A program made the position numbers and the translations under genes. Shown here one piece after another: positions 2,020-41,744 of a stretch of DNA of 64,000 nucleotides; within the stretch, counting starts at the first letter, position 1; every line of letters starts with the position of its first letter. Below the pieces are notes generated by a model. The model did not search any database and was not told the DNA's origin. It saw only the letters and a list, made by a program, of their open reading frames with translations. The stretch lies in NCBI GenBank assembly GCA_003349915.1, contig QFXE01000001.1:287155-351154 (forward strand), given 5' to 3'. Origin of the DNA: an endosymbiont of Escarpia spicata. GTDB taxonomy: Bacteria; Pseudomonadota; Gammaproteobacteria; Chromatiales; Chromatiaceae.

Positions 2020-2220
2020 CTTCGGATTTCCTGCAATCCGTAACTTCTATTTTCAACCCCGATGGCCGCTTAATATTTGGCGGTCTTTGGGGGCTGAACA
2101 TGGAATCGATCGTCTTAAGAGACAGGACGCTTGATCTCCAAGCCACAAGACTCACGCCAAACTATCGGGTATCTCTCCGACCAGCCTGATCATTCCACCC
2201 ACCCGTGGTGAGAAAGAGAA

Positions 2221-3921: not shown

Positions 3922-3950
3922 TCTTTTTCGTATGCCGCCTAAGATCATGC

Positions 3951-3985
3951 TGGTCGGGTTAACGCTTACGCTAACCCAACCTACA
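3951..3985. repeat. Dispersed palindromic repeat (GGGTTAnCG...CGCTAACCC)
   Basis: The arms GGGTTAACG and CGCTAACCCAACCTAC form an imperfect palindrome between the kinase and narK genes. Related sequence recurs at 10981-11015 and 41963-42050. It may fold as a hairpin in the transcript between two co-directional genes. Confidence 0.55.
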
Positions 3986-4002
3986 GACTCAGTCGAATCG
4001 GC

Positions 4003-5469
4003 TTAACTCACTTCGATCATCTGCACACTGCCATCCTCCATAACCTCGGCAGTATGACCCTCGGGCTCATCCAGAAACTGAACAGCGACCAGACAGACAA
4101 TCGCCGCCCCAGCAATCACCAGAAAAAATATCTGAGGTGATACGAAGGAGAAGACGGTAAGAAAAGTAACCGCACCCACGTTGCCGTAAGCACCAGCCAT
4201 ACCGGCTACCTGACCGGTCATGCGTCGCTTGACCAGAGGCACCATGGCAAATACTGCGCCTTCACCCGCCTGCACAAAGAAAGAGCAGGCCATAGTGGCG
4301 ATCACAGCCAGTGCCAGCGGCCAGCCAGAGGTGATCTGGGCCAGGATAAAGTAACCAACGGCCAGACCGGCGATGAGCAGGCTGAGCATCTTGCGGCGAC
4401 CGAACCTGTCGCTGAAGAGACCGCCGCTGGGACGAGCCACCAGATTCATGAAGGCAAAACCCGATGCCAACAGACCCGCCTGCACAATGCTCAGGTCGAA
4501 GGTATCTTTGAAGAAGAGAGGCAGCATTGAAACCACGGCCAGCTCGGAGCCAAAGGTCACAAAGTAGGCGAGATCAAGGATCGCCACCTGCTTGAACTTA
4601 TAGCGATGGATCTCCGGTACCTCTTCCTTGAAGACATGTTTATTGATACGCCATACCTGTGAGGTCTGATAGGCATAGAGCACAGCTAGGCCGATATAGA
4701 TGGCGTTGGCAGCAGTTGCACTCAGGATCTTCAGATTTTCAGGACCCAGTTTCCAGGCCAGAACTGCCAGCGCTGCATACATGGGGATGTTCATCACCAG
4801 GTAGAAGAAGAAGTCACCCTTGCTGGTCACTTCCATGGCGCCTGTTTTCTTTGGCTTGAAGTAGGTGGAACCCTTAGGCGTGTTGCGTGCCAGCTTGTAG
4901 TAGATGAAGGAGTAGATCAGGGTGATCACGCCGGTGGAAGCGACAGCATAGCGCCAGCCATCATCTCCGCCGAATATCAGCGCAACAGTGGGCAGGCTCA
5001 TTGCAGCAGCGGCGGAGCCGAAGTTGCCCCAGCCACCATAGATGCCTTCCGCGACGCCCACCTGCTTGGCGGGGAACCATTCACCGATCATGCGGATGCC
5101 GATGACAAAACCTGCACCGACGAAGCCCAAGGCAAAACGGCTTGCCAGCAGTGCGGTATAAGAGTCTGCAATAGCAAACAAAAAGCAGATGAAGCTGGAG
5201 GAGAATAGCAGGGATGAAAAAACAATCCTCGGCCCGAAGCGGTCCACCAACATACCGACGATGATACGTGCCGGAATGGTCAAGGCCACATTGATGATCA
5301 GCAGCGCCTTCACCTCCTGATTGCTCAGATTGAATGCCTCCTGGATCGAAGCCATCAGCGGCGCATGGTTGAACCAGACCATGAAGGTCAGGAAAAAGGC
5401 GAACCAGGTGAGGTGAAGTGTCTTTATCTTTCCTGTGAATGATAAAAGACCGAGTTTGTTTTCCGACAT
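4003..5469 (-). CDS. narK: NarK-family nitrate/nitrite transporter (MFS)
   Basis: A 488-residue major-facilitator protein with about 12 hydrophobic helices. Two glycine-rich segments, [16 protein letters not shown] and [15 protein letters not shown], are the nitrate/nitrite signature motifs of the NarK/NasA group. [14 protein letters not shown] is the loop 2-3 MFS motif. The start has a good ribosome site (AAGGAG). It is divergent from nirB and upstream of the kinase/phosphatase gene. With NirBD and NasA alongside, nitrate import for assimilation is the natural reading, although nitrite export cannot be excluded. Confidence 0.93.
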
Positions 5470-5949
5470 GCGTTACTCCTTGTGGAAAATGAAATATTTC
5501 AAACTCACAAGCGATATTCGTGCCAAATTTGTATCATATTGTTTTTGCGAATGAATTTTGTATATCAACCCATTAAAACATCATAAAAAGGCCCGAAGCC
5601 GGTGCGTGTCAGGCCAGCTCCGTTCGATTTTGGCGCAGTGCCAAATTCTCGGTCTTCGGAGCGTATTTTCAATGACCCAGCAGGTTCTCAAAGCACCATA
5701 AGGGAGATGAATGGGCAGGAGACACGACCCATATATCGAGTAGGGTTTATTGAGGGGCAGCGAGTAGATGGGCGCACCAAAATAGAGCGTGATAGTGCGA
5801 AATAGCCTTCGGTCGCCAACGCTATGAAATAAGGATCACCCTTAAACAAGAGGATAGCCTGGCATTTTTGTTTCTGGCATAGCCTTTGCATTAGGGAACC
5901 GAAACAGAGCGGCGAAACCCCGCTTCAGGATCAGATGTAGAGGGCAACC
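5470..5949. promoter_or_regulatory. Divergent control region between narK and nirB
   Basis: These 480 bases hold no convincing gene. The narK side is AT-rich. The nirB side carries a sigma-54-type promoter at 5875-5890, described separately. One short open frame at 5602-5805 has neither recognisable sequence nor a ribosome site. I do not see a certain FNR or NarL site. Confidence 0.6.
5875..5890 (+). promoter_or_regulatory. Probable sigma-54 (RpoN) promoter for nirB operon
   Basis: TGGCAT-AGCCT-TTGCA fits the sigma-54 consensus TGGCAC-N5-TTGC with the invariant GG and GC at the right spacing. It points towards nirB and would start transcription near 5902, about 48 bases before the start codon. 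Sigma-54 control with NtrC is usual for nitrate assimilation genes and supports an assimilatory role. Confidence 0.6.
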
Positions 5950-8388
5950 ATGAAAGAGAAGTTGGTATTAATTGGTAACGGCATGGCCGGTATCCGTACG
6001 CTGGAGGAGCTGTTCAAGCTCGAAGAGGCGGACAAATACGAGATCACCGTTTTCGGCGACGAGCCCCACCCCAATTACAACCGGATCATGCTCTCGCCGG
6101 TGTTGGCCGGCGAGAAGACAATCGACGATATCATCCTCAACAGCCGTGAGTGGTACGCGGAGAACGACATCACCCTGCACACTGGCGATCCAGTAGTGGA
6201 GATTGACCGGGTCGGACGTCAGGTGAAGAGCGAGTCGGGCAAGTCGGTTGCCTATGATCGGCTGCTGATCGCCACTGGTTCCAGCCCCTTCATTATCCCA
6301 ATACCTGGCGCTGATCTGGATGGCGTTATCGGTTTCCGCGATATCAAGGATGTGGACACCATGCTGGAGGCAGCCTCCAACTATAAGAAGGCGGTGGTGA
6401 TCGGCGGTGGTCTACTCGGTCTGGAAGCAGCCAACGGCCTGATGAAAAACGGCATGGATGTCACTGTAGTGCATCTGATGGATATTCTCATGGAACGCCA
6501 GCTCGACAAGCCGGCAGCCAATCTGCTGAAGGCATCCCTTGAACAGAAAGGCATGCAGTTTCTGATGGAGGCGCAGACCGCATCCATCGTTGGAGAAAAA
6601 CGCGTCACTGGTGTGGAGTTCGCCGACGGCTCCAGCGTCGAGGCTGATCTGGTTGTGATGGCTGTAGGTATTCGCCCCAATTTCATGCTGGCGGAGCAGG
6701 CGGGTATCCACTGCGAACGTGGCATCGTGGTCAACGATACCATGCAGACTTTCGATCCAAAGATCTACGCTGTGGGTGAGTGCGTACAGCACCGGGACCA
6801 ATGTTACGGTCTGGTGGCGCCTCTATTTGAGCAGGCCAAGGTCTGCGCCAACCATCTGGCCCATCTCGGTTATGGCCGTTATGAAGGCTCAGTCACATCA
6901 ACCAAGCTGAAGGTGACCGGTATCGATCTCTTCTCCGCCGGTGAGTTCAACGAGGAGGAGGACGATGAGATCCTGGTGATGCAGGATCCGGCACTGGGTG
7001 TCTATAAAAAGCTGGTGATCCGCGATAACCAAATCAAAGGTGCGGTGATGTATGGCGACACCATGGACGGTACTTGGTATTTCCAATTGCTGCGTGAGGG
7101 TACCGACATCTCGGCCTTTCGCAGTACGATTCTTTTTGGTCAGCACGACCTCGGTGATGCCGGTCACGGTGACGAGGCAAGGGTTGCCAATCTTTCAGAC
7201 GATGCCGAGATCTGCGGCTGTAACGGCGTCTGCAAAGGCGACATCGTCAATGCCATAACCACCAAGGAGCTTTTTACACTCGATGATGTGCGAATCCACA
7301 CCAAGGCATCCGCCTCCTGCTGTTCCTGTACCGGTCTGGTGGAGTCGATCCTGGCCAGCACTGTAGGTGAAGGTTACTCTGCCGTGCCGAGCAAGAAACC
7401 CATGTGCAGTTGCACCGAGCACAGCCACGATGAGGTGGTAGAGGCGATACAAAAAGAAGAGCTCAAATCGATGCGGCAGTTATTCGATTATCTTAACTGG
7501 AAGACCCCGGATGGCTGCGCCAGTTGCCGCCCGGCATTGAATTACTACTTGCTGGCACGTTGGCCGGAGGAGTACCAGGATGACGCCCAGTCACGCTTCA
7601 TCAACGAGCGCGCCCACGGAAACATCCAGAAGGATGGTACCTATTCTGTAGTCCCGCGTATGTTTGGCGGCCTCTGCACACCCAAGGATCTGCGTGCCAT
7701 CGCCGATGTCTGTGACAAGTTCGACGTGCCCGAGATGAAGGTCACTGGCGGTCAGCGTATCGACCTCTTCGGAGTGAAAAAAGAGGATCTTCCACCGATG
7801 TGGAAGGATCTCTCTGATGCCGGTTTTGTCTCCGGCCATGCCTATGGCAAAGCGATGCGCACCGTAAAGACCTGTGCAGGCAAGACCTGGTGCCGCTTCG
7901 GTACTCAGAACTCAACCGGTCTGGGCGTGAAACTTGAGGAACTCACCTGGGGCTCATGGATGCCGCACAAGTTCAAGCTGGCGGTCTCAGGTTGTCCGCG
8001 TAACTGCGCCGAGGCGACCATCAAGGATTTCGGCGTGGTCTGTGTCGACTCGGGATATGAATTACATATCGGCGGTAACGGGGGTATCAAGGTGCGTGTT
8101 ACCGACCTGCTCTGCAGAGTAGAGACTGAAGAAGAGGTGCTGGAATGTTGCGGTGCCTTTACCCAACTCTATCGTGAAGAGGCCCACTATCTGGAGCGTA
8201 CCGCCCCTTGGGTCGAGCGTGTGGGACTGGGCCACATCAAGCAGTGCATCCTTGATGATGAAGCCGGGCGAAAGGCGCTTAATGAACGTTTCAAAGTAGG
8301 TCAGCAGTATGCCCAGATCGATCCTTGGAAAGCGCGGGCCGATGGTGCGCATACGAATGAATTCACCCCAATCGAATTGGCAGTATGA
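5950..8388 (+). CDS. nirB: Assimilatory nitrite reductase, large subunit
   Basis: This 812-residue cytoplasmic enzyme reduces nitrite to ammonium with NAD(P)H. The N-terminal half is a pyridine-nucleotide oxidoreductase fold (GNGMAGIRTLEEL for FAD, VIGGGLLGLEAANGL for NAD). A BFD-type [2Fe-2S] region follows: CGCNGVCKGD with SCCSCTG, and then CSCTEH with GCASCRP. The C-terminal third has the sirohaem/[4Fe-4S] ligands TCAGKTWCRFG and SGCPRNCAEA. All expected cofactor cysteines are present and the length is normal. nirD follows after 11 bases and nasA after that, so it heads the operon driven from the sigma-54-type site. Confidence 0.96.
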   Translation: MKEKLVLIGNGMAGIRTLEELFKLEEADKYEITVFGDEPHPNYNRIMLSPVLAGEKTIDDIILNSREWYAENDITLHTGDPVVEIDRVGRQVKSESGKSVAYDRLLIATGSSPFIIPIPGADLDGVIGFRDIKDVDTMLEAASNYKKAVVIGGGLLGLEAANGLMKNGMDVTVVHLMDILMERQLDKPAANLLKASLEQKGMQFLMEAQTASIVGEKRVTGVEFADGSSVEADLVVMAVGIRPNFMLAEQAGIHCERGIVVNDTMQTFDPKIYAVGECVQHRDQCYGLVAPLFEQAKVCANHLAHLGYGRYEGSVTSTKLKVTGIDLFSAGEFNEEEDDEILVMQDPALGVYKKLVIRDNQIKGAVMYGDTMDGTWYFQLLREGTDISAFRSTILFGQHDLGDAGHGDEARVANLSDDAEICGCNGVCKGDIVNAITTKELFTLDDVRIHTKASASCCSCTGLVESILASTVGEGYSAVPSKKPMCSCTEHSHDEVVEAIQKEELKSMRQLFDYLNWKTPDGCASCRPALNYYLLARWPEEYQDDAQSRFINERAHGNIQKDGTYSVVPRMFGGLCTPKDLRAIADVCDKFDVPEMKVTGGQRIDLFGVKKEDLPPMWKDLSDAGFVSGHAYGKAMRTVKTCAGKTWCRFGTQNSTGLGVKLEELTWGSWMPHKFKLAVSGCPRNCAEATIKDFGVVCVDSGYELHIGGNGGIKVRVTDLLCRVETEEEVLECCGAFTQLYREEAHYLERTAPWVERVGLGHIKQCILDDEAGRKALNERFKVGQQYAQIDPWKARADGAHTNEFTPIELAV

Positions 8389-30319: not shown

Positions 30320-30606
30320 AAGCTGCGTTTGAATTCCGGGAACGGAGCCAATCCGGTCCGCCAAGTGTTGCTTAACTATCCGCTATTGCACGGATTGATA
30401 TCGACCCTTCATGTGCACTTGTGAAAACCAATGCCTATATCCCAGTGCGACGCGAGCCCTCCAGGTATTCCGAATGTTAGGCGCTATACTGTATTAGAGA
30501 GGAGGATCACAACGCATAATTGATGTCTGGCGATGCGGCGTTTCCCCAAGCCTTACATTACCTACCTGTGATCAAGCTGTAACCTCGTTGAAGATGGATC
30601 AGGGCC

Positions 30607-31416
30607 ATGCGCCTGGGTATTGACTTCGGTACTTGTTATTCCAGTTCCGCGGACGCGAACTTCCCGACAGAGAGTATTTCTTACGGAGAAGGATACTGGG
30701 CCATTGAATTGTCCGATGCGAAATCATTAATCACCGCCAACGTTCAGCCTGAGGATGTCATCGGTGATCCATGGGCTCATCTGCAGTACTGGCGAATGCA
30801 GCCCGAGCCTGGAGCCGGTACGACGACCTGTCAGAATTTCATTCTGTCCGAGCAAATTGTCGCGGGGATATCGGACGAACAGCTAAGTGCCATGGCGATT
30901 GACGCGGGGTGGCAGATTGTTGGAGCCGGAACCCCGTTTGCTGATATCGGCAATCTACTCGAATTCGGTGGCTTGGAGATCGAATACGACCAATCCGCCA
31001 CCCTCGATGACTTGGCACAACCGTTGGCGGAAGGGCGAACGGTTATTGCGTCCGTAAGTACAACCAGATTATGGGCCCCGTCCGCCGATGATGACAATCT
31101 GTGCGACTATCCGGGCATTCCCGGCCAGCAAGCCTTGGGCGTGGTTCAGGTCATTGGCATCGACCGGGCCGATGCACAGAACCCGGTTGTCATACTGAAC
31201 GATCCGGGTTTGCAAAATGGTTCGGGCATCATGATTCCAGCAGATGATTTTTTTAACGCATGGAATGAGAGCGGCTGTTATACGGCATCGGTGACCGGGA
31301 CAATTTCAGAATCCTCACCCCTGTTGGCGGGCGGCTACAACAAATGGGGATATTGGCAGTATGACGATGGTACTTGGGAGGAGGATTTCAAATGGGGTCA
31401 TTATTACAACTATTGA
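30607..31416 (+). CDS. C39-like pseudopeptidase with an Hsp70-type N-terminal motif
   Basis: 269 residues. Residues 1-15 (MRLGIDFGTCYSSSA) match the phosphate-1 motif that opens Hsp70/DnaK-type ATPases, but no other Hsp70 part follows. From about residue 50 the protein is a papain-fold C39-like domain related to the next gene: Cys75 is kept, the oxyanion Gln is shifted, and the catalytic His is replaced (Gly178 in GQQALGVVQVIGID where the paralogue has GQDANHAVQVIGID); Asp199 remains. It is therefore probably inactive as a peptidase. The tail is rich in Trp and Tyr. No signal peptide. It may be a fusion left by deletion of an Hsp70 gene. Function unknown. Confidence 0.75.
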   Translation: MRLGIDFGTCYSSSADANFPTESISYGEGYWAIELSDAKSLITANVQPEDVIGDPWAHLQYWRMQPEPGAGTTTCQNFILSEQIVAGISDEQLSAMAIDAGWQIVGAGTPFADIGNLLEFGGLEIEYDQSATLDDLAQPLAEGRTVIASVSTTRLWAPSADDDNLCDYPGIPGQQALGVVQVIGIDRADAQNPVVILNDPGLQNGSGIMIPADDFFNAWNESGCYTASVTGTISESSPLLAGGYNKWGYWQYDDGTWEEDFKWGHYYNY

Positions 31417-31506
31417 TGTGCCGGACAGATTCACGAGGAAACAGTTGCGCGGAATGATCGGGTGTATCTGCGCAAGGTACAGACCAATACTGGTATGGAG
31501 AGGATG

Positions 31507-32472
31507 ATGAATGAGCTATTCGATCAGTTTGACGAATTCGAAGACGACCTTTGGGGTCCAATTGCTGACGATGCAGTGGAACCCGTAGCTGATTTATCGG
31601 CCGGTTCAGCCTATCAAGCTCCGGTCGAGTGGAATGGCATCTTTATCTCCTCAAGTGAAGAGAATGATGAGTATTTACCTGATGTTGAGCCTATGGATCA
31701 GACTGATCTATCCGCAATCCAGTCACTTGACTCTGGCGAACTGCAGCCGGAAAACACGGCGGGGTCCTCCTTTATCGAGTATCCCGTTTTCGATCCGGAG
31801 AACGCCGATCTGGAGCAAATCGTAGGCGATCCGGCCCAGGACATGGAGAACTGGCACCTGCAGTCGACCCAGTCTTCTTGCGCATTGGTCTCTCAGGAAT
31901 TTATTCTGGATAAGGTGCTTGGGCGCGATGTCACCGAAGAGGAACTGACCAGTGTTGCAACTGATGCGGGTTGGTACACCCCCGGTGGAGGAACGCCGAT
32001 GAATGAGATGGGACGCGTTCTCGAACATTTCGAATGCCCGGTCGACTATGACATTAATTGCACCATGGATGATCTATCGGCAAAGCTTGAGCAGGGAGAA
32101 TCGATTTTAGTCGCGTTGGACTCTGATGAAATATGGAACACAGGGGCCGATCCTGACGACATGCTTTTCGAGTATTTCGGCATGCCTGGTCAGGATGCCA
32201 ACCATGCGGTTCAGGTTATCGGTATCGATTACAGTGATCTGGACAGCCCAAAGGTAATTCTGAATGATCCCGGTTCCCCAGATGGTAGTGGGGTCATGAT
32301 TCCAGCCGATAAATTTATGGACGCCTGGGAAGACAGTAATCATTTCATGGTATCCAGTGGTGCATCCCAAGTGTCGGACCAGATGATCGGCAACTACTAT
32401 GATCGCTATGGAAACTGGTATTACGATGATGGTACGCCAGAAAGATATAACTGGGACACGGGCTATTACTGA
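31507..32472 (+). CDS. C39-like cysteine peptidase domain protein
   Basis: 321 residues from the ATG at 31507, chosen because GGAGAGG stands just before it; a GTG 15 codons upstream is possible. The first 105 residues are very acidic and probably disordered. The C39-like domain has Gln119, Cys125 in QSTQSSCALVSQEF, His233 in GQDANHAVQVIGID and Asp254 in ILNDPGSPDG, a complete papain-type set. The tail (GNYYDRYGNWYYDDGT) mirrors that of the upstream paralogue. There is no signal peptide or ABC transporter nearby, so this is not a standard bacteriocin-processing enzyme. The substrate is unknown; one candidate is a product of the same island. Confidence 0.75.
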   Translation: MNELFDQFDEFEDDLWGPIADDAVEPVADLSAGSAYQAPVEWNGIFISSSEENDEYLPDVEPMDQTDLSAIQSLDSGELQPENTAGSSFIEYPVFDPENADLEQIVGDPAQDMENWHLQSTQSSCALVSQEFILDKVLGRDVTEEELTSVATDAGWYTPGGGTPMNEMGRVLEHFECPVDYDINCTMDDLSAKLEQGESILVALDSDEIWNTGADPDDMLFEYFGMPGQDANHAVQVIGIDYSDLDSPKVILNDPGSPDGSGVMIPADKFMDAWEDSNHFMVSSGASQVSDQMIGNYYDRYGNWYYDDGTPERYNWDTGYY

Positions 32473-32525
32473 TTTGACCACCGTATAAATTGCAATCATG
32501 AGCTTATTCAGCAGGAGAATCGATC

Positions 32526-33119
32526 ATGTCGCACTTAAGTGAACAGACTCAGGAAACTCATTCAAACAGGTCAACACAGCAGTCGGTCCGCAGGACATCC
32601 GCGCTACTGGAAAGACTCAGAAAAACCCCCTGGTTTCAGCAACTGATTCCTGCGGAAGCGGGCATAGGATGGCCGATCCCCTTGCGCAGGAACGGAAAGG
32701 TCTATATACGAATCCCGTTTTTTGGATTCTCGCCCACGAGCGAGAAGGGAAAAACCGCCCTGTTTCCTCCTTTCGCCCTGGTTACCCTGGATTGGGCCAG
32801 CTTGGTTCCGGTTGAATATGTAAACCTGCAGTTTCGTAATCCTTGGCCTGATGTGGAGTGGGGGAAGCCTGTCGGACACTTTCCTCACGAGTCAGTCGCC
32901 TCCCTTGCCGTCGGTGAGTACAAAGAAAAGCGTAAGGAACTGCTTGAGCTATACAATGAGCTGTTCGACAAGCTGTCGCAGGGATCTGATTTCTCTGAAG
33001 AATGGAATCACAGATTTTCTACAGCACTAAATATGCTGATGGAGCCGTCACTGGAGCCCTACTACAGGACACTCGGCAAAAAGTTTTTTGATCACTATCT
33101 CCCGTCGAAAACGCGCTAA
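32526..33119 (+). CDS. Unrecognised protein of the dynamin island
   Basis: 197 residues, no signal peptide or membrane helix. The first 25 residues are Ser/Thr/Gln-rich. A beta-rich centre (IGWPIPLRRNGKVYIRIPFF, then ALVTLDWASLVPVEYVNL) is followed by a helical C-terminus. A ribosome site (CAGGAG) precedes the ATG. It lies 53 bases after the peptidase-like gene and 62 before the first dynamin gene, on the same strand, so a shared operon is likely. I cannot name a family. Confidence 0.65.
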   Translation: MSHLSEQTQETHSNRSTQQSVRRTSALLERLRKTPWFQQLIPAEAGIGWPIPLRRNGKVYIRIPFFGFSPTSEKGKTALFPPFALVTLDWASLVPVEYVNLQFRNPWPDVEWGKPVGHFPHESVASLAVGEYKEKRKELLELYNELFDKLSQGSDFSEEWNHRFSTALNMLMEPSLEPYYRTLGKKFFDHYLPSKTR

Positions 33120-33181
33120 TGGTTAAGGCAAACATTGTCCGCATTGAGGATTGAAAAAACCGAATTACGAGAGATCATCCC

Positions 33182-35194
33182 ATGCTTGCGTTTACACAAT
33201 ACAAAAACAGCGCGCTGCTGTTGATTCGCAGCGCAATCGATCTGGTGCAATCCCAAGGCGAGGATTCGATAGCCGGGGAGTTGGAGGAAGCGGCCAAGCA
33301 CCTGACAGAAGAGAAGATATACATCGTCGCATGCGGTGAATTCAAGCAGGGTAAATCATTGTTCATCAATGCATTACTCGACGAGCCTAATCTGTTTCCT
33401 GTCGACATTGATATCACCACGAATCTGGTCTCCACCATCAGTTACGGCCCCCACGAAGTGATTGAGGTACTGGCTGGTGAGACAGGGAATATAGCCTCCA
33501 AGGCGATCAGCCGCGATGAAATAGCGACATTCGCTACCGAACAGAAGAACAAGGACAATGTAAGAAACGCACGCTTGTTGACGATCATAAGTCCGAACGA
33601 ATTGCTGAAAGACGGACTTGTGTTTGTGGACACGCCGGGAATTGGCGGCCTGAATGAACGGCATACGGAGGTGACCCAGACATTTATCCCGAATGCGGAT
33701 GCCGCAATTTTTGTCAGCGATGCTCATGCACCACTATCCACCTCCGAGCTGAACTTTATCTCCAGCATCGCGCACCACTGTCCCCATATTATCCAGGTCG
33801 TGACAAAGATCGATTCTGTTCAGGACTATGCAAAGATCGTCGAAAGCAACCGCACTAAACTGGCCGATATACTGGGTGATGGCAAAGAGCAGATCGCTGT
33901 TGTTCCGGTATCGAGTCTCGCAAAACTGGATTATCTTGAATCCCAGGATGAGGAGGATTTGGCGGACAGTAACTTTGATGTTTTCAGCGAACAGTTGTGG
34001 AGGCTGATCGGCAATAACAGGGTAGCAACATTGACGCTGCATGCATTGAACAGGCTATCACTTGCCATGGCAAGACTGAGCGAACCGCTGCAGGTTGAAC
34101 TGAGTGCAATCGAGCAAAGCAGTAAACAAAAACTTGAAGCGCTGGAACAGCAGTACCGTGACTCGAGGAGCCGGCTGCAGGAGATGTTGGACAGCAACAC
34201 CCAGTGGAGGACTATGCTGAGTGATGGACTTCAGGATATACGCATGGAGGCACTGGCGGAATTCCAAGACGGCTTCGTCGGGATAAATCGCCATAACAAC
34301 GTTAGTCTGGATGATGAAGCCCTACTGCGAAATCCACAGCAGATCGTGGGTCTGCTTGAGTTAAACATTGACTCCCTCATGACGGATCTGTGGGCATCGC
34401 TGAACAAACGGGCGAGCGACCTGTTCGGACAGATGGAATCGGTCACTGGATTGAGCATGGGAGTGGTTGGCATGAACAAAGGGGGCATCCTCAAGGCAGA
34501 AATCTCTGCGGATGAAATGGAAACGCAGGACTCCGACTGGTTCGCGAAATCCCGTTCCGTGGCGCGTGGCGGGATTTTCAATATCTATGCGGGCAGTGTT
34601 GTCGGCGGCGTGTTAGGCCTCGTGGTCGGCGGTGCCCTCGGCGCAGTGACTGGAGGTGCAGGGTTCCTCCCTGGCGTCGAGCTCGGGCTTATGGCGGGTG
34701 CTGCTCTGGGTGGAGTTGCCGGAATTGCATCTGGTGCCAAGGAAGGATTGGCGCAGATCACAGAAAAAGACAGGAAAGCAAGAAAGGTCCAGATCGTAAA
34801 GATCATCAGGCCTTATCTTGAAGACAGCCAGCGGTTGTGCCAAAAGAAGCTTACGGAGGCGACATCAAAACTCGAACGCATTATGCGGGATGAACTCGTC
34901 AATCAACTCAGAGAGGAGAAACAACGATGTGAGCGCACGCTCGCTTCGATTTCCAGCGGGGGCAAATTGTCGCAGAAAGCGAGCGAGGAGAGATCGCTCA
35001 CGATCAAGCGGGAAATCCAAAGAATTGCCCGGATCAGCACAGCAGCTCGGGAGTCGACGAGAACCATCCTCTCTAGAATCACAGCCGAAAGCACACATGC
35101 GGGCCGGGACGGGGAGATGAGTCGCATCGATAATCAAGCAACGCATGATCAGAAGCCGGAAATTACTGATAAGGGCGACTGGGCTGACGGATAG
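33182..35194 (+). CDS. Dynamin-like GTPase with a glycine-rich membrane segment
   Basis: 670 residues. GTPase motifs: G1 GEFKQGKS (52-59), G2 Thr near 79-80, G3 DTPG (150-153), G4 TKID (208-211). A helical stalk-like region follows. Residues about 463-521 are hydrophobic with many glycines (SVVGGVLGLVVGGALGAVTG and beyond), a glycine-zipper-like stretch that could insert in a bilayer. The C-terminus is a charged coiled coil. Bacterial dynamin-like proteins fuse, cut or repair membranes and often come as unequal pairs, as here. It is followed at once by the second GTPase. Confidence 0.85.
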   Translation: MLAFTQYKNSALLLIRSAIDLVQSQGEDSIAGELEEAAKHLTEEKIYIVACGEFKQGKSLFINALLDEPNLFPVDIDITTNLVSTISYGPHEVIEVLAGETGNIASKAISRDEIATFATEQKNKDNVRNARLLTIISPNELLKDGLVFVDTPGIGGLNERHTEVTQTFIPNADAAIFVSDAHAPLSTSELNFISSIAHHCPHIIQVVTKIDSVQDYAKIVESNRTKLADILGDGKEQIAVVPVSSLAKLDYLESQDEEDLADSNFDVFSEQLWRLIGNNRVATLTLHALNRLSLAMARLSEPLQVELSAIEQSSKQKLEALEQQYRDSRSRLQEMLDSNTQWRTMLSDGLQDIRMEALAEFQDGFVGINRHNNVSLDDEALLRNPQQIVGLLELNIDSLMTDLWASLNKRASDLFGQMESVTGLSMGVVGMNKGGILKAEISADEMETQDSDWFAKSRSVARGGIFNIYAGSVVGGVLGLVVGGALGAVTGGAGFLPGVELGLMAGAALGGVAGIASGAKEGLAQITEKDRKARKVQIVKIIRPYLEDSQRLCQKKLTEATSKLERIMRDELVNQLREEKQRCERTLASISSGGKLSQKASEERSLTIKREIQRIARISTAARESTRTILSRITAESTHAGRDGEMSRIDNQATHDQKPEITDKGDWADG

Positions 35195-35195
35195 C

Positions 35196-36761
35196 GTGAA
35201 TATCCAGCAAAATGCCAGAGAACTGTTCGAGTCAGTTCTTGCCATGACGCGAGGCTACCCCTCCCTACAGGAACTGCATTGTGAACTGCAGTCTCATTAC
35301 CAGCGGCTTCACCAGCCCATGCAGGTTGCCATTGTCGGGAAAATCAAGGCGGGTAAATCGACCATGATGAATGCGCTGCTCGGTGAGCAGATGGTGGCCA
35401 CTGGTGCGGAGGAACTCACCTTCAATGTCAACTGGCTGAGATATGCTTTGGAACCGTTTCTGCTGGTCCACTACAAGGATGGCCGTCCAGTCGAGGAGAA
35501 GTCCCTCAAAGAGCTGGAATCGCTGACCCGGCGACGGGGTTTCGATGTGGAACAATTGAAACAGATCAAGTATGTCGAGGTCGGTTACCCAAACGATATG
35601 CTAAAAAACTTCAACCTTATCGATACCCCCGGTCTTGGATCTGCCTATCTGGACGACAGCCGCAATACCCTTGATTTTCTCGGCCTGGATGCGCACAAGC
35701 TCACTGAGCGAACCGAGGCTGAGGCTTCGGGTGCGGACGCTATCCTCTATCTGTTCAGCCAGAGCATAGGCCAGTCGGACAAAAGCATTCTTGAAGAGTT
35801 TCAGGGTGCATCCATCGGAGAGGCGTCGCCGATAAACACCATTGGTGTGCTTACACGAATCGACGCTTATTGGCCGACAGAGGAGAACCCGCTGGCCGGA
35901 GGACAAAATGTCATTAACCGACTCCGCTCAGAGCATAACGAGGTCAATGGTGTTTTTTATAATATTTTCCCGGTTTCCGGGCTGTTGGCATTTGGCGCAA
36001 AGACACTTACCAGGGAAGAGCATGGGACGCTTCTGCAATTGGCCAGGTTGCCGCAAGCGCGTTTTCAACGACTGGTCCGGAACGTCAATCGCTTTGCTCA
36101 ACGTGAATACGACGATATCGACGTCTCCCCTCAGCGTCGGCAATCACTTCTGATGCGGCTGGGGCAATTTGGTATAGGGGAGGCATATTCAGCAATATCC
36201 GACGGCATTGGCGAAAAGGATGCTCTTTCTCAGGCGTTGGTCAACCGGAGTGGTCTGCCCCAACTCACTGATTGTGTCATGTCTCATTTTGGCAACCGCG
36301 CTTTTTTGATCAAGCTGAGTACCGGATTGCACAAGACTGCTGTGAGTTGTTTTGTTGCAGAGAGAAGACTCTCCGGATTGGAGCGCGGAATCGTCTCGCA
36401 GATCAGGGCGAAGTTCGAGGCCTTTGAAGCACAGCAGCATGAATTCACCGAATTGCGAATACTACGCAGCTATTACGAAGGCGGGTTGGAGATTGCCCCG
36501 GATGAAGCGCAACACCTGCTGCAGATAACCGGCGAGTATGGCGTGTCCATAGGCGAAAGACTGGGAGCTGAACAGCAAGCAGATCCCGTGACTCTCCTTG
36601 CTGCCTGCCGTGAGCGAAAGAGGTATTGGTACCAAAGGGCGAATGACGTAATGGGTGCCGGCAGGGCTACTATTTCAGCTGCAAATGCACTCGCACGATC
36701 CTACGAGAGGATCGAGTACAATCTTAGTCGGGGCCCCGGATCTGCAGATCGCCAAAATTGA
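35196..36761 (+). CDS. Second dynamin-like GTPase of the pair
   Basis: 521 residues if the GTG at 35196 is the start, one base after the previous stop; an ATG at 35145 would overlap by 50 bases and has no ribosome site. Motifs: G1 GKIKAGKS (48-55), G3 DTPG (143-146), G4 as TRID in GVLTRIDAYWP, an Arg for the usual Lys. The rest is helical. It has no strongly hydrophobic segment, in contrast to its partner, so it may depend on the first GTPase for membrane contact. Tight coupling suggests a hetero-oligomer. Confidence 0.83.
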   Translation: MNIQQNARELFESVLAMTRGYPSLQELHCELQSHYQRLHQPMQVAIVGKIKAGKSTMMNALLGEQMVATGAEELTFNVNWLRYALEPFLLVHYKDGRPVEEKSLKELESLTRRRGFDVEQLKQIKYVEVGYPNDMLKNFNLIDTPGLGSAYLDDSRNTLDFLGLDAHKLTERTEAEASGADAILYLFSQSIGQSDKSILEEFQGASIGEASPINTIGVLTRIDAYWPTEENPLAGGQNVINRLRSEHNEVNGVFYNIFPVSGLLAFGAKTLTREEHGTLLQLARLPQARFQRLVRNVNRFAQREYDDIDVSPQRRQSLLMRLGQFGIGEAYSAISDGIGEKDALSQALVNRSGLPQLTDCVMSHFGNRAFLIKLSTGLHKTAVSCFVAERRLSGLERGIVSQIRAKFEAFEAQQHEFTELRILRSYYEGGLEIAPDEAQHLLQITGEYGVSIGERLGAEQQADPVTLLAACRERKRYWYQRANDVMGAGRATISAANALARSYERIEYNLSRGPGSADRQN

Positions 36762-36794
36762 ATCGGTCAGCCTGATCATCGGGGGAGCGTTTTT

Positions 36795-36854
36795 TTATTG
36801 GTTCAGGCGAAAACCGAACTTCATGATGACCTGCCAGTGAGACACCTTGTCCTG
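36795..36854 (-). pseudogene. 3' fragment of a dodecin gene
   Basis: On the minus strand this reads QDKVSHWQVIMKFGFRLNQ then stop, nearly the C-terminus of the complete dodecin at 42721-42930 (QDGKVAHWQVTVKIGFRLDD). About 45 of 51 aligned bases agree, with one missing codon. No upstream part is recognisable. It marks a duplication or recombination scar just after the second GTPase gene. Confidence 0.75.
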
Positions 36855-36943
36855 CGAAAAAGGGGCTCTGTCGATGGGTATCCGCATAGTGTTAACAGGC
36901 ACTAGGAGCATCCGGCGATTAGTAAGTATGCATCGAGAGTGGT

Positions 36944-36949
36944 TATAAT
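36944..36949 (+). promoter_or_regulatory. Possible -10 element before the large exported protein
   Basis: A perfect TATAAT lies 123 bases before the start codon of the 1215-residue protein. The -35 region is weak. The call rests on the -10 match and on the 310-base gap after the GTPase genes. Confidence 0.25.
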
Positions 36950-37071
36950 TTATTCAGATGGATAATCACACATGCTGAGGGATCAGATTTCCCAATCAGC
37001 AACCGGTGGCGTCCCATCAACCGGGGAACAATACCGGCGTTCCCCGAATGCCTGATTATTGGGAGGTGGAC

Positions 37072-40000
37072 ATGGGCAGCGTAAAAAAACCTTTTCATCC
37101 GTCCCTGCAGAGCTTAGCAAAGGCCTGCATAGTCCTCTGTCTTTTCCTAGGGTATCTTAACCCGACATTCTCTGAAACCGCTATTCAGGACGGCGCCATC
37201 CCCATCGGGCAGTTGAGAGCAGCCCAGCAGAAGGAATTGGATGCCCTGCGGGAAGGTTATCGAAATCAGGCCAATCAATCCGGCGCTGATCAGGATGCAC
37301 TCTTTGACCGCTACCTATCGGATCGAAAACGGGTCCAGGACAAATACAACCGGCTGGATACCCGTAACCAACGCGTAGATGAGATGATCAATCGGACCGG
37401 CGCCGCCCAGACCGGGAGCAATACCAAGGACGTGCGGGCCGATGTCGATACGGCGGGCAACACGGACCAGATCGATGAGAGGATGGTCGATGAGTTGAAA
37501 CGCCGCGGTCACGATGTCGACACCAGTAATCCCAGTAAGGTGGTCGATCACACGGATGACCATGTCTACTGGCGCAAGGAGACCGCTGCGGGGAACAAGG
37601 CCAAGGAGACCGATTTTGACTCCTTCAAGACCCCCGGCGGGCGCGATGCCACCGGCAACCTCGGGGAGGTGAAGGATGCACGAGGTGAAGGGATCGACCA
37701 CTCATCCAAATATCACCACGGTCGCGCGGACGGTGACCTGAAGACCATGGGCAAGTCGGTGTCGAAGATGGACAAGGCGTCGGACCGGATCAGGTATGAC
37801 GAGGGCAAAGGCGCTTTTGTCAAAGATCAGGGGGAGTTCAGACGTTCGCTGGCACAGCATCCTGATCCAGAGATGAGGGAACTGGCTAAGATCGACCCGA
37901 AAACCGGAAAATCCCAGGCTGACACGCTGGTCGACCAGGCAAAGGCATTTCAGAAATATGGTGATCCGGTGACCGCGGGCATCGCCGATCTTGGCGATTC
38001 GCCGGAGGTTCAGGCGCAAAAGGTGAAAGAGTGGCAAAAGAGATCCAACAAGTACATGGATGCAGCGGAGCAGAGGGCGAATCGTCGTGGAGATGTCCGG
38101 GACAAGGTGAGGGAAAACTTCGAGCAGTCCTATCGCAACGCAAACAGTGCCGATCCGGCAGAAAGTGAGTGGAATAGAAACGCTGCCGATGACATCGATA
38201 ACAATCGGCGGCGTGTGCGGGAGGGCAACGAGGTCGGCGATAGATTTCTCAGTGGCGAGAAACGCAGGAAGACTGCTGATGAGACCTACAGTGGCGGCTG
38301 GAAAGACCAGGGAGAGCCGGTCAAGGGCGCGGTCCCGGATGATGAGTTGCAGCGGCGGCTCGGCTCGGCGGAACAGAGTGCCAACGCGAAGCGGTCGGGG
38401 GGGATCGATGGACCGGATGGAGCTGCCCCGAGAACGGGGATCTCAAGTGATGGTGATTTGCCTGCGAGTGGAACAGGCACAAGAAGAGGGCAGGGCATTC
38501 CAGACCCGGATCTTCCCTCTGCCGGCAGACGGCCGTCCTGGGCTGACAGTCCGACCGATGTGGTGGTTGTGGGCAAGAGAGGCAAGGCCAAGGTGACCGC
38601 CATTGATGGTCGCAGGCCCAAGCCAAAAACCAACGTTGTGGGCGCCGTCGGTGCGGGTGTGGAAGCGGGCCTGCAGATGGGCGAGGCCACGGCGCGAAAG
38701 CTGGGTGAGGTACTGGATCGCTCTGACCAGACTGTCACCGGGAAGGATATGGCTGACATCGTCAAAGAGGGCTCTGGATATGAGCCGATGCGCAAGGCGG
38801 TGGAAGATACCCGGATGCGGCAGCGCATCAAAAAGATCGAGCTGGAAAACAAGATTCGTGATCTGGAGAAGAAGCCTGGGTCGTTGACCGCTGCTGAACA
38901 GAGTGAACTGGGTCGGCTGAAACAGCAGGCCGCCAATACCGACACGACCACCTCGAATATACAGGATCTGGGCCAGCAGATGCTGGTCGACCCTAACAAG
39001 GAGATCATCGGCCGCCGGATGGGTGAAATGGAGGCGCAGGCCAAGGCGGAGGGACGCAAGTCGGAATTTCTGCGGGATGGCCTACCGGCCATGGGGAAGG
39101 CCGGGGCCGAAGTGGTTGGAAACGCTGTCGGAATCGGGGCGGCGGCGAATATGGCGGCCGAGATGGAGACCTTCAACGAGCGCTCCGACTGGTCGGCACA
39201 GAAAAATGCCATGGTGCAACACCTTAACGACAAAGCGCGCTGGGCGGACAAGCGAAATCGCAAGGCAACGGCAGAGCTGGAAGGCATCCTCTTCTCTGGC
39301 AACGCAAACAGCCCCGAGAACCAGCAACGTGTCGAACAGTTGCTGGATGATATCGCAGCCAACCAGGCGGAGATGGACAAAATCGTCGCCATCGCCAACG
39401 GCAACCTGAGCGAAGTCGAGCCGAAAAAGCTCGCTACGATCCGGGGCTTGGCTGGTAGCCAACCCGATCCCGATGCCATGCGTGACTATGCCCGGCAGAT
39501 GTCCGAAGGTGCAAGGCAAAAGGCGGAAGAGGAAGAGTCCTGGCTCGACAAGGAGAAAAAACGGAAGCAGGCTCGCCGTGCCGAGGAGGAAAAGCAGAGG
39601 AAGGTAGAGGAGGAGAAGGCCCGTCTGGCCGAGCAGAATAAGCAGAAAGAGGCGGAGGCCGATGACGGATGGGGCAGCGCCGAGAGCGGCTACGGTGAAG
39701 AGGCGCCAAAGACGGCAGCCTCCGGCGAAGAGGCACTCACTGACAAGATCACCGAGATCATGCTCACCGAGCCGGACCCTGAACGTCGAAAGGAACTCAT
39801 CCGACAGGCCATCCGGAAACATGCCGGTGGTGGGCAACAGGGTGGTGGTGCAGATGACGGTGCATGGGGCGACGGCGGATACGAACAGGCCAGCCCCGCG
39901 GAGCAGTATGTCAGTGCCATCAGAGCCGCCAATGCCGATGGTGACTTCCAGCGGGCAATGCGTCTGGCCAACCAGGCCCGAGACGCAGACCCGGAGCATG

Positions 40001-40719
40001 CATGGCTGAATCAGAACTACGGTACCATCCAGCTGCTTGCGGAACGTGATAAACGCTATCGGGAAGCTATCCAAAACGCGATCAGCAATCTGGAACGCGG
40101 CAATGTCAATGAGAGTATCGAAGCGCTCAAGAGGGCAATGCAGAACGCTTCGACCCAGCTTGGCCAGGACAAGACGGCTCGCTCCTTGCTGGAGGATGCC
40201 AAACGAATCGCCGAGATGAAGCGCGAGGAGGCCATAGAGCGGGCGCGTCTGGAAGGGGAGCGGAGCGCTTATGAGCGGGACCGCGAACGGGCGCGTTATG
40301 AACGGCGCCGGGAAGAGAACAGACGTTCAGCTCAGGCCTTGAGGGGAGCCCTGATGGGTGTCCTGGGGGCGGTCAGTCAGGCCAAGGCCGCACGTAGCAC
40401 CAGTACAACAGTAAATCCGGGCGCCTATTCCGACGACATCATCCAGCGTAAGGTGCGGGAGAACGAACGCAAGTATGGCGATTTGATGAAAAAGTATGAG
40501 CAGAGCCATCGCCAAAATCTCCATACAGCGCCCAAGACATCCAGGCGGAAACCCGTCAACAACGCAAATGCGGGGTGGGCAACCAAGTCGTCACAGCCCG
40601 CAGCCAAGACCAAGTCTTCGGGGTTCGATAAATGGGAAGGCGACTTCAGCAGTCAATGCGATGGCAAGGCGCCAGGTATCTACGAGTTTGGAGAGTGTTT
40701 CGAACATACCGAATTTTAA
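37072..40719 (+). CDS. Large exported coiled-coil protein with TPR-like region
   Basis: 1215 residues from the ATG at 37072, which has a strong ribosome site (GGGAGG); a GTG 22 codons upstream is less likely. Residues 1-37 form a Sec signal peptide (VKK, then CIVLCLFLGYL). The mature protein is highly charged and low in complexity, with coiled coil near the N-terminus, two Gly/Ala-rich patches (about 520-540 and 675-700), a Lys/Glu-rich coil near 820-880, TPR-like helices (about 950-1060) and an Arg-rich stretch. The final 22 residues carry the only obvious cysteine pair. I know no family for the whole. It would lie in the periplasm or outside the cell. It is convergent with a lipoprotein gene. 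Confidence 0.75.
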   Translation: MGSVKKPFHPSLQSLAKACIVLCLFLGYLNPTFSETAIQDGAIPIGQLRAAQQKELDALREGYRNQANQSGADQDALFDRYLSDRKRVQDKYNRLDTRNQRVDEMINRTGAAQTGSNTKDVRADVDTAGNTDQIDERMVDELKRRGHDVDTSNPSKVVDHTDDHVYWRKETAAGNKAKETDFDSFKTPGGRDATGNLGEVKDARGEGIDHSSKYHHGRADGDLKTMGKSVSKMDKASDRIRYDEGKGAFVKDQGEFRRSLAQHPDPEMRELAKIDPKTGKSQADTLVDQAKAFQKYGDPVTAGIADLGDSPEVQAQKVKEWQKRSNKYMDAAEQRANRRGDVRDKVRENFEQSYRNANSADPAESEWNRNAADDIDNNRRRVREGNEVGDRFLSGEKRRKTADETYSGGWKDQGEPVKGAVPDDELQRRLGSAEQSANAKRSGGIDGPDGAAPRTGISSDGDLPASGTGTRRGQGIPDPDLPSAGRRPSWADSPTDVVVVGKRGKAKVTAIDGRRPKPKTNVVGAVGAGVEAGLQMGEATARKLGEVLDRSDQTVTGKDMADIVKEGSGYEPMRKAVEDTRMRQRIKKIELENKIRDLEKKPGSLTAAEQSELGRLKQQAANTDTTTSNIQDLGQQMLVDPNKEIIGRRMGEMEAQAKAEGRKSEFLRDGLPAMGKAGAEVVGNAVGIGAAANMAAEMETFNERSDWSAQKNAMVQHLNDKARWADKRNRKATAELEGILFSGNANSPENQQRVEQLLDDIAANQAEMDKIVAIANGNLSEVEPKKLATIRGLAGSQPDPDAMRDYARQMSEGARQKAEEEESWLDKEKKRKQARRAEEEKQRKVEEEKARLAEQNKQKEAEADDGWGSAESGYGEEAPKTAASGEEALTDKITEIMLTEPDPERRKELIRQAIRKHAGGGQQGGGADDGAWGDGGYEQASPAEQYVSAIRAANADGDFQRAMRLANQARDADPEHAWLNQNYGTIQLLAERDKRYREAIQNAISNLERGNVNESIEALKRAMQNASTQLGQDKTARSLLEDAKRIAEMKREEAIERARLEGERSAYERDRERARYERRREENRRSAQALRGALMGVLGAVSQAKAARSTSTTVNPGAYSDDIIQRKVRENERKYGDLMKKYEQSHRQNLHTAPKTSRRKPVNNANAGWATKSSQPAAKTKSSGFDKWEGDFSSQCDGKAPGIYEFGECFEHTEF

Positions 40720-40760
40720 TCAGACAAAACGTCAGCCGTCACTCCTGAATAGTCGAATTG

Positions 40761-41744
40761 TCAGGGTTCGATTGTGAACCTCACCAGCCGGCTGGTACAA
40801 CCGGTCTGGATGCAGACCTCGCCTTTGTAAGTATAGATACCTGGTGTTGCTCGCGACGGGATCTTCTGGCGGAAGCTGGTCGCATGCTTCCCGCTACTGC
40901 GGGTTTCCTGTCGTTCTTTGGGATATCCCGGCAGAGCCTTGCTGTTGAAGACCAGGTTGCGCGATTCGGTCACCTGTACCGGCTTCCCGTCGGCCGCGTC
41001 GATGGTGTAGTCGAGTTGCAGTTTCAAGACCTCTCCGTGCCTGACACGGGATTGTGTTGCGGTTACGGTGAGGCGGGAAATCGATGGTTCAGCCATCTGT
41101 ACCGGGGCTGGTGCGACGGGCGCAACAGGGGTCAGTTCCGGCTGGGTCGGTGGTGTCGGCAGCGCAGCGGGGATTTCAGTGGTGCCCGTTTCCGTCTTAT
41201 CAAGGAACTTGATGGTTGCGTTAGTGAGCTGATCTTCGATCCAGTCCACGGTAGCTGTTTGGTTTGTCATGTCTTCATAGAATTCGCTACCCCAAGAATC
41301 TTTGTTGGGTGTGCTTATTCTGAGGAGGCCTCTATTGCCTTGCTGATTTTTGAAATAGAGCGCCAGTGCATGGTGTGTCCACGGCCTGACATTTGTGAAG
41401 GTGGCAATGTCTCCTCCACGCGCCTGAAACTTGCCGAGCTTCTGCTGCTCTTTCTTATCATGTGGGGATTGGTTGTAATGGGTGGCATACCAGTGAACCG
41501 GCTTGCCTTTGTAAATAACCATTTTGGAGTGCCAATCCGTTCGAAAAACAAACTCCCGCCCGACAAAGGCGAGCCTGAGTTTGTCCATGTGCCCATTCGT
41601 CAGTTTGATCTTTGATGCGCCTGCGCCACAGGCACTCAGCAGCAAGCTGGAGAGAATAATTGCCAAGGCGTTGAGGAAGCTACGTTGAAAACCGCGTCTG
41701 TCAGACAGGATGTTGGTGCTGGGTTGGGAGACAGTTCCTTTCAT
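40761..41744 (-). CDS. Putative outer-membrane lipoprotein
   Basis: 327 residues. A hydrophobic segment ends in the lipobox LLSAC (Cys39), with Gly at +2, which does not signal inner-membrane retention. A globular domain (about 45-185) is followed by a Pro-rich linker (about 190-220) and a C-terminal beta-rich domain with SISRLTVTATQSRV and a late cysteine pair in VCIQTGCTS. A ribosome site (AAGGA) precedes the ATG. It ends 41 bases from the large exported protein on the other strand; both would be in the envelope. Function unknown. Confidence 0.75.
   Translation of the reverse strand: MKGTVSQPSTNILSDRRGFQRSFLNALAIILSSLLLSACGAGASKIKLTNGHMDKLRLAFVGREFVFRTDWHSKMVIYKGKPVHWYATHYNQSPHDKKEQQKLGKFQARGGDIATFTNVRPWTHHALALYFKNQQGNRGLLRISTPNKDSWGSEFYEDMTNQTATVDWIEDQLTNATIKFLDKTETGTTEIPAALPTPPTQPELTPVAPVAPAPVQMAEPSISRLTVTATQSRVRHGEVLKLQLDYTIDAADGKPVQVTESRNLVFNSKALPGYPKERQETRSSGKHATSFRQKIPSRATPGIYTYKGEVCIQTGCTSRLVRFTIEP

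Follow-up and report, generated by a model that had tools for sequence, protein, structure and literature searches.

A conserved cassette of a predicted C39-type peptidase, a dynamin-associated protein and paired dynamin-like GTPases, with its Hsp70 gene deleted, in an endosymbiont of Escarpia spicata

The locus presented here bears on what paired bacterial dynamins do and on what turns them on. The cyanobacterial "chaperone" and tandem clades of Jilly et al. 2018 (PMC5827413), in the part of that article considered here, likewise place dynamin-like genes in tandem or beside DnaK/Hsp70. There, DnaK lies downstream of the dynamin, whereas in the loci presented below the Hsp70 is upstream and a peptidase and an orphan protein are constant; in section 7 of the article, neither a C39 peptidase nor an orphan domain nor GrpE is mentioned. 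Gene order speaks against an assignment to the chaperone clade, since the Hsp70 stands upstream in the sister copy and in the cyanobacterial copies and is deleted in the window, the 64,000-nucleotide stretch of DNA that was analysed. The GTPase-centric conflict systems of Kaur et al. 2020 (PMC7159879) also combine GTPases with Hsp70 and GrpE. In contrast, the GTPases here are dynamins and the peptidase is of the C39 type, and the word "dynamin" is absent from the text of PMC7159879. A DO-GTPase/GAP1 conflict system was rejected as well: no DO-GTPase or GAP1 gene was found among the window proteins scanned with Pfam, and a DO-GTPase1-type gene (2.7e-15) is carried only by the Dolichospermum L009 variant. 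The Campylobacter proteins Cj-DLP1/Cj-DLP2 form a similarly adjacent, heterotypic dynamin pair, in an operon that, as described in the relevant part of PMC6104087, lacks a peptidase, an orphan and an Hsp70.

In mycobacteria, IniA and IniC are paired GTPases too, and IniA is the best solved relative of the first dynamin-like protein of our locus, DLP1 (6j72, residues 30-573, E 1.1e-30). The iniBAC operon contains IniB and is not known to include a C39, Hsp70 or orphan gene. The neighbours of the DLP pair in the window encode a C39-like protein, C39b, and the orphan. The LeoA/LeoBC systems of PADLOC, like other dynamin-based defence candidates, likewise contain dynamin-like GTPases, and the second protein of the pair, DLP2, weakly matches LeoA (3.3e-10) and LeoBC (1.8e-8). 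Identity with these systems was rejected, as the scores of 17.4 and 11.1 bits fall far under the NCBIfam LeoA cut-off of 325. Leo systems are not known to include a peptidase or an Hsp70. The set was found under no system name, in agreement with the original prediction, which was made from the sequence of the window.

All seven open reading frames of that prediction were found at their positions among the window ORFs, including five same-strand genes with short gaps or none. These five form a real block on the + strand, which constitutes a conserved cassette, with spacers of 45, 53 and 62 bp followed by a 50-bp overlap. The block begins with a chimeric gene 1 holding the body of a second C39-like protein, C39a (30607..31416, 269 aa), and continues with C39b (31462..32472, 336 aa from the GTG at 31462), a papain-like (C39-type) putative peptidase, and the orphan (32526..33119, 197 aa), which has a dynamin-associated domain. 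It ends with DLP1 (33182..35194, 670 aa), an IniA-like dynamin-like GTPase, and DLP2 (35145..36761, 538 aa). The block lies in a variable island (30320..36916, + strand, approximate limits) that was delimited by comparing the flanks in the window with those in G001 and G002, two same-genus genomes without the block. Its left limit is the stop of DUF3549, and the sequence common with G001 and G002 resumes at 36917 (GATTAGTAAG); no target-site duplication or terminal repeat was recognised by eye at the island ends. The island is present at this site in 4/6 genomes of the genus, and the remaining 2/6 (G001, G002) have the site without it. DUF3549 and mutS are the immediate neighbours of the block; neither is a known defence gene, which counts against the explanation that we favour below.

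The first part of gene 1, 14 codons at 30607-30650, derives from the beginning of an Hsp70 gene and continues in frame into the C39a body. The deletion spans 3,420 bp, a multiple of three, relative to positions 3030-6449 of the related locus L007 from a Lamellibrachia symbiont. Two relatives keep a 1,068-aa Hsp70-beta-helix protein at this place, and in G005 the Hsp70 is split by an IS3-type insert. The Hsp70 heading the block in close relatives likely encodes the trigger sensor, missing in the window through this deletion.

Both dynamin-like GTPases were borne out by Pfam Dynamin_N matches (2e-22 for DLP1, 2.1e-13 for DLP2) and by G1, G3 and G4 motifs in each protein; the two adjacent genes thus belong to the paired-DLP class. 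The best solved relative of DLP2 is 5owv_C (E 7.5e-15), which we take to be the Campylobacter Cj-DLP1/Cj-DLP2 pair. DLP1 contains a glycine-rich hydrophobic segment (34571..34669, + strand, residues about 464-496), a predicted membrane-inserting hairpin that would act at the membrane. In this segment, Kyte-Doolittle averages over 19 residues exceed 1.6 for stretches beginning at residues 464-478, and no such stretch of DLP2 exceeds 1.31. Heterotypic assembly and inner-membrane remodelling by DLP1 and DLP2 are predicted. DLP1 ends in a conserved C-terminal tail (GDWADG, 35174..35191, + strand), and a GDWADE-like tail is common to many homologues. The strict form, [WF]A[DNE] plus 0-3 residues, ends 68 of the 114 listed homologues longer than 600 aa, compared with 0.24% of shuffled tails; these were drawn from 120 listed of 180 homologues, with 6 of 600 aa or shorter left out. 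Its absence from the other 46 counts against the favoured explanation. A looser pattern was found in 7/7 DLP1 proteins on orphan contigs, 15/19 on C39 contigs and 50/97 others, where contigs of equal length were treated as the same contig, a proxy for linkage.

The prediction of two C39-like proteins held for the fold, which is supported through homologues and the C39b model, but gene 1 proved to be a chimera that lacks the catalytic Cys and His. Neither window protein matched in the Pfam scan, and PF13529 is present in some C39 homologues. The C39b model aligns to papain-like/C39 structures, with Cys140, His248 and Asn268-Asp269 as catalytic residues (numbered from the GTG; an ATG at 31495 corresponds to the start of the L007 copy). 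With this modelled fold and these residues, C39b is a predicted peptidase. In the alignment, both C39a and its intact counterpart in L007 have Gly where C39b has Cys140 and His248. C39 domains of PCAT/ComA-type exporters are fused to an ABC transporter, whereas C39b is a stand-alone ORF with no such fusion. A strict three-motif pattern fitted 104 of the 120 listed C39 homologues (287 were found), with 15 failing at His and one at Cys. Some of these 15 are among the 64 listed homologues used in the alignment, all of which have the His; the strict His pattern is therefore too narrow. No PADLOC profile matched the C39 proteins or the orphan, a further point against the favoured explanation.

For the orphan, 60 homologues were found. 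Its model is confident (pLDDT 89.6, pTM 0.82) and had no Foldseek match in the PDB at E 0.001 or better. A homologous domain is fused to dynamins elsewhere (profile comparison probability 95.8, E 7e-9). Co-occurrence of the orphan with the GTPases, a check suggested in advance, was confirmed: orphan and DLP1 matches fall in the same 8/388 Cyanobacteriales genomes, with three candidates per genome taken in one scoring step. The set is conserved in other genomes, and the cassette recurs in cyanobacteria in the typical order Hsp70-C39-orphan-DLP1-DLP2-(GrpE). Across the loci of these eight genomes, DLP1 and DLP2 lie beside the orphan in 8/8, with a C39 upstream in 7/8, an Hsp70 in 6/8 and a GrpE (Pfam) in 5/8. 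The Hsp70 tails vary: TPR in two, beta-helix in one plus L007, kinase with WD40 in one, a second actin-like part in one (cut by the contig end) and a short tail in one.

We regard it as modestly probable that the block is a sensor-less copy of this cassette, which would unite a predicted C39 peptidase, a dynamin-associated protein and a DLP pair for triggered membrane remodelling. The orphan may be a dedicated GTPase adaptor that holds the DLPs inactive at rest. In intact copies, the Hsp70 has no domain of its own kind beyond the nucleotide-binding one, and a beta-helix, a TPR array or a kinase-WD40 part takes the place of the substrate-binding domain. This Hsp70 would sense an insult and switch state, aided by an exchange factor of the GrpE type in loci that carry its gene. 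The C39 peptidase would next cut a partner. Its most likely target is DLP1, at the loose linker that precedes the conserved tail, with the orphan as the alternative. Finally, DLP1/DLP2 would assemble on the membrane via the DLP1 hydrophobic segment. In the window, the Hsp70 is gone and C39a is fused to its former start, with C39b, the orphan, DLP1 and DLP2 still open. The recurring peptidase, the adaptor-like domain (separate or fused), the DLP1 tail and the swappable Hsp70-borne module offer handles on activation. We predict that the block acts as a machine for triggered membrane remodelling, possibly against viruses; the envelope-remodelling or defence function suggested originally and the antiviral or stress role proposed here are both inferred.

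The deletion itself is known from the assembled sequence of a 23-contig genome, and an assembly error hiding a real Hsp70 would explain it. We consider this very improbable: the two sides meet exactly and in frame, sharing about 1 bp of microhomology, and the assembly contains no second Hsp70 of the deleted class, only three that are 28-35% identical to the deleted one. If the deletion is real, the remaining genes may be idle and on their way out. The IS3-type insert in G005, a fragmented copy in G823 and the C39a dN between window and relatives (0.06-0.07, against 0-0.04 among relatives) are consistent with such a dying remnant. We nevertheless judge it unlikely, though of appreciable weight: C39b, the orphan, DLP1 and DLP2 are intact, 94-98% identical to relatives, with dN/dS of 0.09-0.35 in a comparison that is pairwise and therefore cannot date the deletion. 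With the core of the cassette kept and the likely sensor deleted, the window offers a natural experiment.

The original prediction had joined the block with an exported coiled-coil protein (37006..40719, + strand) and a lipoprotein (40761..41744, - strand) in one membrane system, and all seven genes do adjoin in the window, G003, G004 and G005. However, the latter two occur in 6/6 same-genus genomes, and in G001 and G002 they come directly after DUF3549 with no block between. Their partnership with the block is not supported because both stand without it there; they are a separate pair outside the cassette, and these empty sites already refute the single system, which is barely credible. A more serious challenge is membrane maintenance, in which the DLP pair would repair or remodel membranes when the envelope is stressed, and quality control of the GTPases would fall to Hsp70, GrpE and the peptidase. 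DLP1 is closest to IniA, reported in the part of PMC6715688 considered here for membrane fission and drug induction; PMC6104087 and PMC5827413 propose a role for DynA in membrane repair during stress from antibiotics or phages; and pairwise purifying selection would fit as well. We still think maintenance without a defence role doubtful. The distribution is very patchy (8/388 Cyanobacteriales, 4/6 in the genus), Anabaena sp. 90 has a plasmid copy, the Hsp70 tails are exchangeable and the copies in G823 and G005 are broken, and for these reasons a conflict system looks likelier. Tentatively, such a system may represent a new class of immune machine, in which DLP pairs are licensed by a papain-like peptidase and a dynamin-specific adaptor, with interchangeable sensors on an Hsp70 ATPase without substrate-binding domain. 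Its core would span cyanobacteria, actinobacterial plasmids and animal symbionts, persisting in one symbiont relative after sensor loss. The cassette content also indicates which genes to co-express in defence assays of dynamin systems.

C39 homologues were additionally considered outside the module. Among 35 C39 places, 7 lie in the module and 28 elsewhere, and 15 of the latter were taken, the best-scoring ones apart from one in G660 that lies 10 kb away from the module. Ten of these 15 loci hold two to four dynamins, and in five of the ten a dynamin is fused to the orphan domain; the other five have no dynamin, and one match there was Era. None of the 15 extra loci matched Hsp70 (0/15); Hsp70 is thus not an invariant partner. 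The Rhodococcus versions lack the orphan and the DLP1 tail, which, like the loci without dynamin or Hsp70, speaks against the favoured explanation. As a weak control for dynamin density, about 80 kb of sequence from the window and the flanks in G001/G002 gave no dynamin match. A DLP1 homologue is likewise present, at a distance of 0.9 to 11 kb, in all 27 C39-positive plasmid records (27/27), which stem from few lineages.

Seven open reading frames were found where the original prediction had placed them, five of which form a plus-strand block encoding gene 1, the C39-like protein C39b, a 197-aa orphan and the dynamin-like GTPases DLP1 and DLP2 (gaps of 45, 53 and 62 bp, then a 50-bp overlap). 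The nearest named relatives found live in the tubeworm Lamellibrachia anaximandri as endosymbionts, with DLP1 94% identical. Both GTPases matched Dynamin_N (DLP1, 2e-22; DLP2, 2.1e-13) and carry G1, G3 and G4 motifs; one hydrophobic glycine-rich stretch was found in DLP1 and none in DLP2. The closest solved relatives are IniA for DLP1 and 5owv_C for DLP2. C39b possesses Cys140, His248 and Asn268-Asp269, invariant in a 65-sequence alignment (C39b and 64 of the homologues listed), and its model is papain-like (mean pLDDT 75.6, core above 90). The orphan is confidently predicted (pLDDT 89.6), and no close solved-structure match was found for it. Many DLP1 homologues end in a conserved tail, e.g. 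GDWADE, behind an unconserved linker; the strict pattern occurs in 68 of 114 DLP1 homologues among those listed, compared with 0.24% of shuffled tails. One homologue is a 960-aa DLP1-DLP2 fusion in which the C-terminal portion of DLP1 is missing; it may have arisen by deletion.

Judged by sequence comparison, gene 1 is a deletion chimera of an Hsp70 start and another C39-like protein, C39a. Its N-terminal start, MRLGIDFGTCYSSS, resembles an Hsp70 phosphate-binding start. In the corresponding locus of a same-genus Lamellibrachia symbiont (L007, genome G003), the shared upstream DNA precedes two genes. The first encodes 1,068 aa and combines an Hsp70 nucleotide-binding domain (PF00012, 2.5e-49, profile positions 2-376 of 599) with a right-handed beta-helix (PF13229, 3.2e-75); the second is C39a at its complete length of 326 aa. 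Relative to L007, the window lacks 3,420 bp, from within Hsp70 codon 15 to about residue 67 of C39a, in frame and with about 1 bp of microhomology at the joint, by eye. The same-genus genome G004 retains a full-length Hsp70 (99% identical), and in G005 IS3-like transposase reading frames separate the nucleotide-binding domain from the beta-helix. These frames (L033, about 2095-3340, reverse complement) represent a second disruption of the Hsp70 gene within the genus. A search of the window's own assembly gave no further Hsp70 of this class. C39a has Gly at both the Cys and His positions, including in the intact relative's copy, so it was not a normal peptidase even before the deletion. Without its Hsp70, the window's system would be unregulated, otherwise regulated, or dead; pairwise dN/dS values of 0.09-0.35 for C39b, the orphan, DLP1 and DLP2 argue against long decay of these four genes but cannot date the deletion.

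The neighbouring exported protein and lipoprotein, proposed earlier as partners in the system, proved separate from it: both occur in all 6 same-genus genomes searched (as two separate matches in G005), and in G001 and G002 the exported-protein gene directly follows a DUF3549 gene, with the block absent from this site. The orphan is absent from the whole genomes of G001 and G002. Extra copies adjoin the lipoprotein gene, degenerate in G001 (L031) and divergent (47% identical) in G005 (L033). Among 190 genomes searched, the orphan was present in four, the window's own included, all in this genus, and, apart from the Lamellibrachia symbiont, the three homologues that carry an organism name are cyanobacterial; horizontal acquisition is therefore likely.

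Within 388 Cyanobacteriales genomes, the orphan was identified in eight, the same eight that encode DLP1 (E 1e-30 or better), an overlap with a chance of about 8e-17 under independence, though the genomes are related. In each of the eight loci (L009, L010 and L045-L050) the orphan has DLP1 and DLP2 as neighbours, fragmented in L050, and all eight DLP1 proteins end in the conserved tail, one with W-V-D. C39 lies upstream in seven, with one small ORF between in L049; the eighth, L010, starts inside the orphan. Hsp70 was observed in six: in L048 it lies on the other strand, separated by intervening genes, and in L049 the contig start truncates it. Its absence from L010 and L050 can be explained by contig ends, at which both loci begin. 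A GrpE gene follows the block in five of the eight (Pfam) and is missing from L009. The Hsp70 tails comprise TPR arrays (L045, L046), a beta-helix (L047), a kinase with WD40 (L048), a short tail (L009) and, in L049, a second actin-like part recognised by reading the sequence and from a weak match to FtsA.

Of the 388 genomes, 30 contained C39 homologues at E 1e-10 or better, including seven of the eight with the orphan. Among 15 loci fetched from 28 places outside the module, ten contained two to four dynamins and five none, against a weakly controlled dynamin background; the single match in L096 is Era, as its KH domain shows. Five of the ten encode an approximately 800-aa dynamin whose N-terminal domain, ahead of Dynamin_N, matched the profile of the orphan at E values from 1.4e-7 to 2.1e-4, and profile-profile comparison of the orphan with this fused domain gave a probability of 95.8 (E 7e-9, 162 columns, five sequences on one side). 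No Hsp70 match at 1e-5 was found in any of the 15. By gene neighbourhood, the peptidase is linked to dynamins more widely than in the cassette, and Hsp70, GrpE and the orphan are each absent from some versions. L088-L093, L097-L099 and L101 display a sister arrangement in cyanobacteria, in which C39 and two to four dynamins occur with no Hsp70 match, five of these loci having the fused orphan domain. L096, L100 and L102, with C39 and no dynamins, share as neighbours a protein of about 180 aa (start MSEQITIEDIYKLF or similar) and one of about 720-940 aa.

All 27 plasmid records with a C39b homologue were among the 43 with a DLP1 homologue, 0.9 to 11 kb apart. Anabaena contributes 1 of the 27, Rhodococcus 14 and Prescottella 12; many of them are near-identical, so few are independent. 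On the Anabaena sp. 90 plasmid the genes follow the cyanobacterial order. Two of three Rhodococcus plasmids opened carry an annotated DLP pair, Hsp70 and C39; in the third, a GTPase, Hsp70 and C39 adjoin a region that matches DLP1 and is not annotated as a single gene. In one of the three, GrpE matched weakly, under the curated cut-off, and the orphan profile matched none. DxDGDG-type repeats, calcium-binding-like by eye, were observed in a Rhodococcus protein beside C39 (L055, 13606-14475) and towards the N-terminus of several C39 proteins from cyanobacteria.

The cassette encodes a peptidase-like protein, an adaptor-like domain and two dynamins side by side, and many copies also include an Hsp70. 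In the proposed mechanism, the Hsp70 tail would sense, its ATPase cycle would relay the signal, helped by GrpE where encoded, and the peptidase would license the dynamin pair to act on the inner membrane. Our first guess for a docking or cleavage site is the DLP1 tail region, because of its conserved tail, loose linker and occurrence with the orphan: the tail was observed in company with the orphan and is absent from the two Rhodococcus DLP1 proteins read, whose plasmids lack it. Because the cassette is patchy, can sit on plasmids, varies in its putative sensor tail and occurs in broken copies, we tentatively favour a conflict (antiphage) role, judged slightly less than even, over housekeeping, judged somewhat less likely still.

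Jilly et al. 2018 (PMC5827413) already note DnaK beside some cyanobacterial dynamins, and Kaur et al. 2020 (PMC7159879) describe Hsp70 and GrpE with other GTPases. Since these neighbours are published, what is new comprises the peptidase, the orphan domain together with its fusions, and the interchangeable tails of the Hsp70, for which our searches of open-access papers found no description.

In the variant shared by the Anabaena sp. 90 plasmid (L054, 5924-12008) and L009 (1140-7236), four different proteins all end in Trp-Phe: the Hsp70, two similar proteins (family not assigned) and one GTPase (NDWF, DNWF, FNWF, PEWF). These ends suggest a shared C-terminal docking motif, as for the DLP1 tail.
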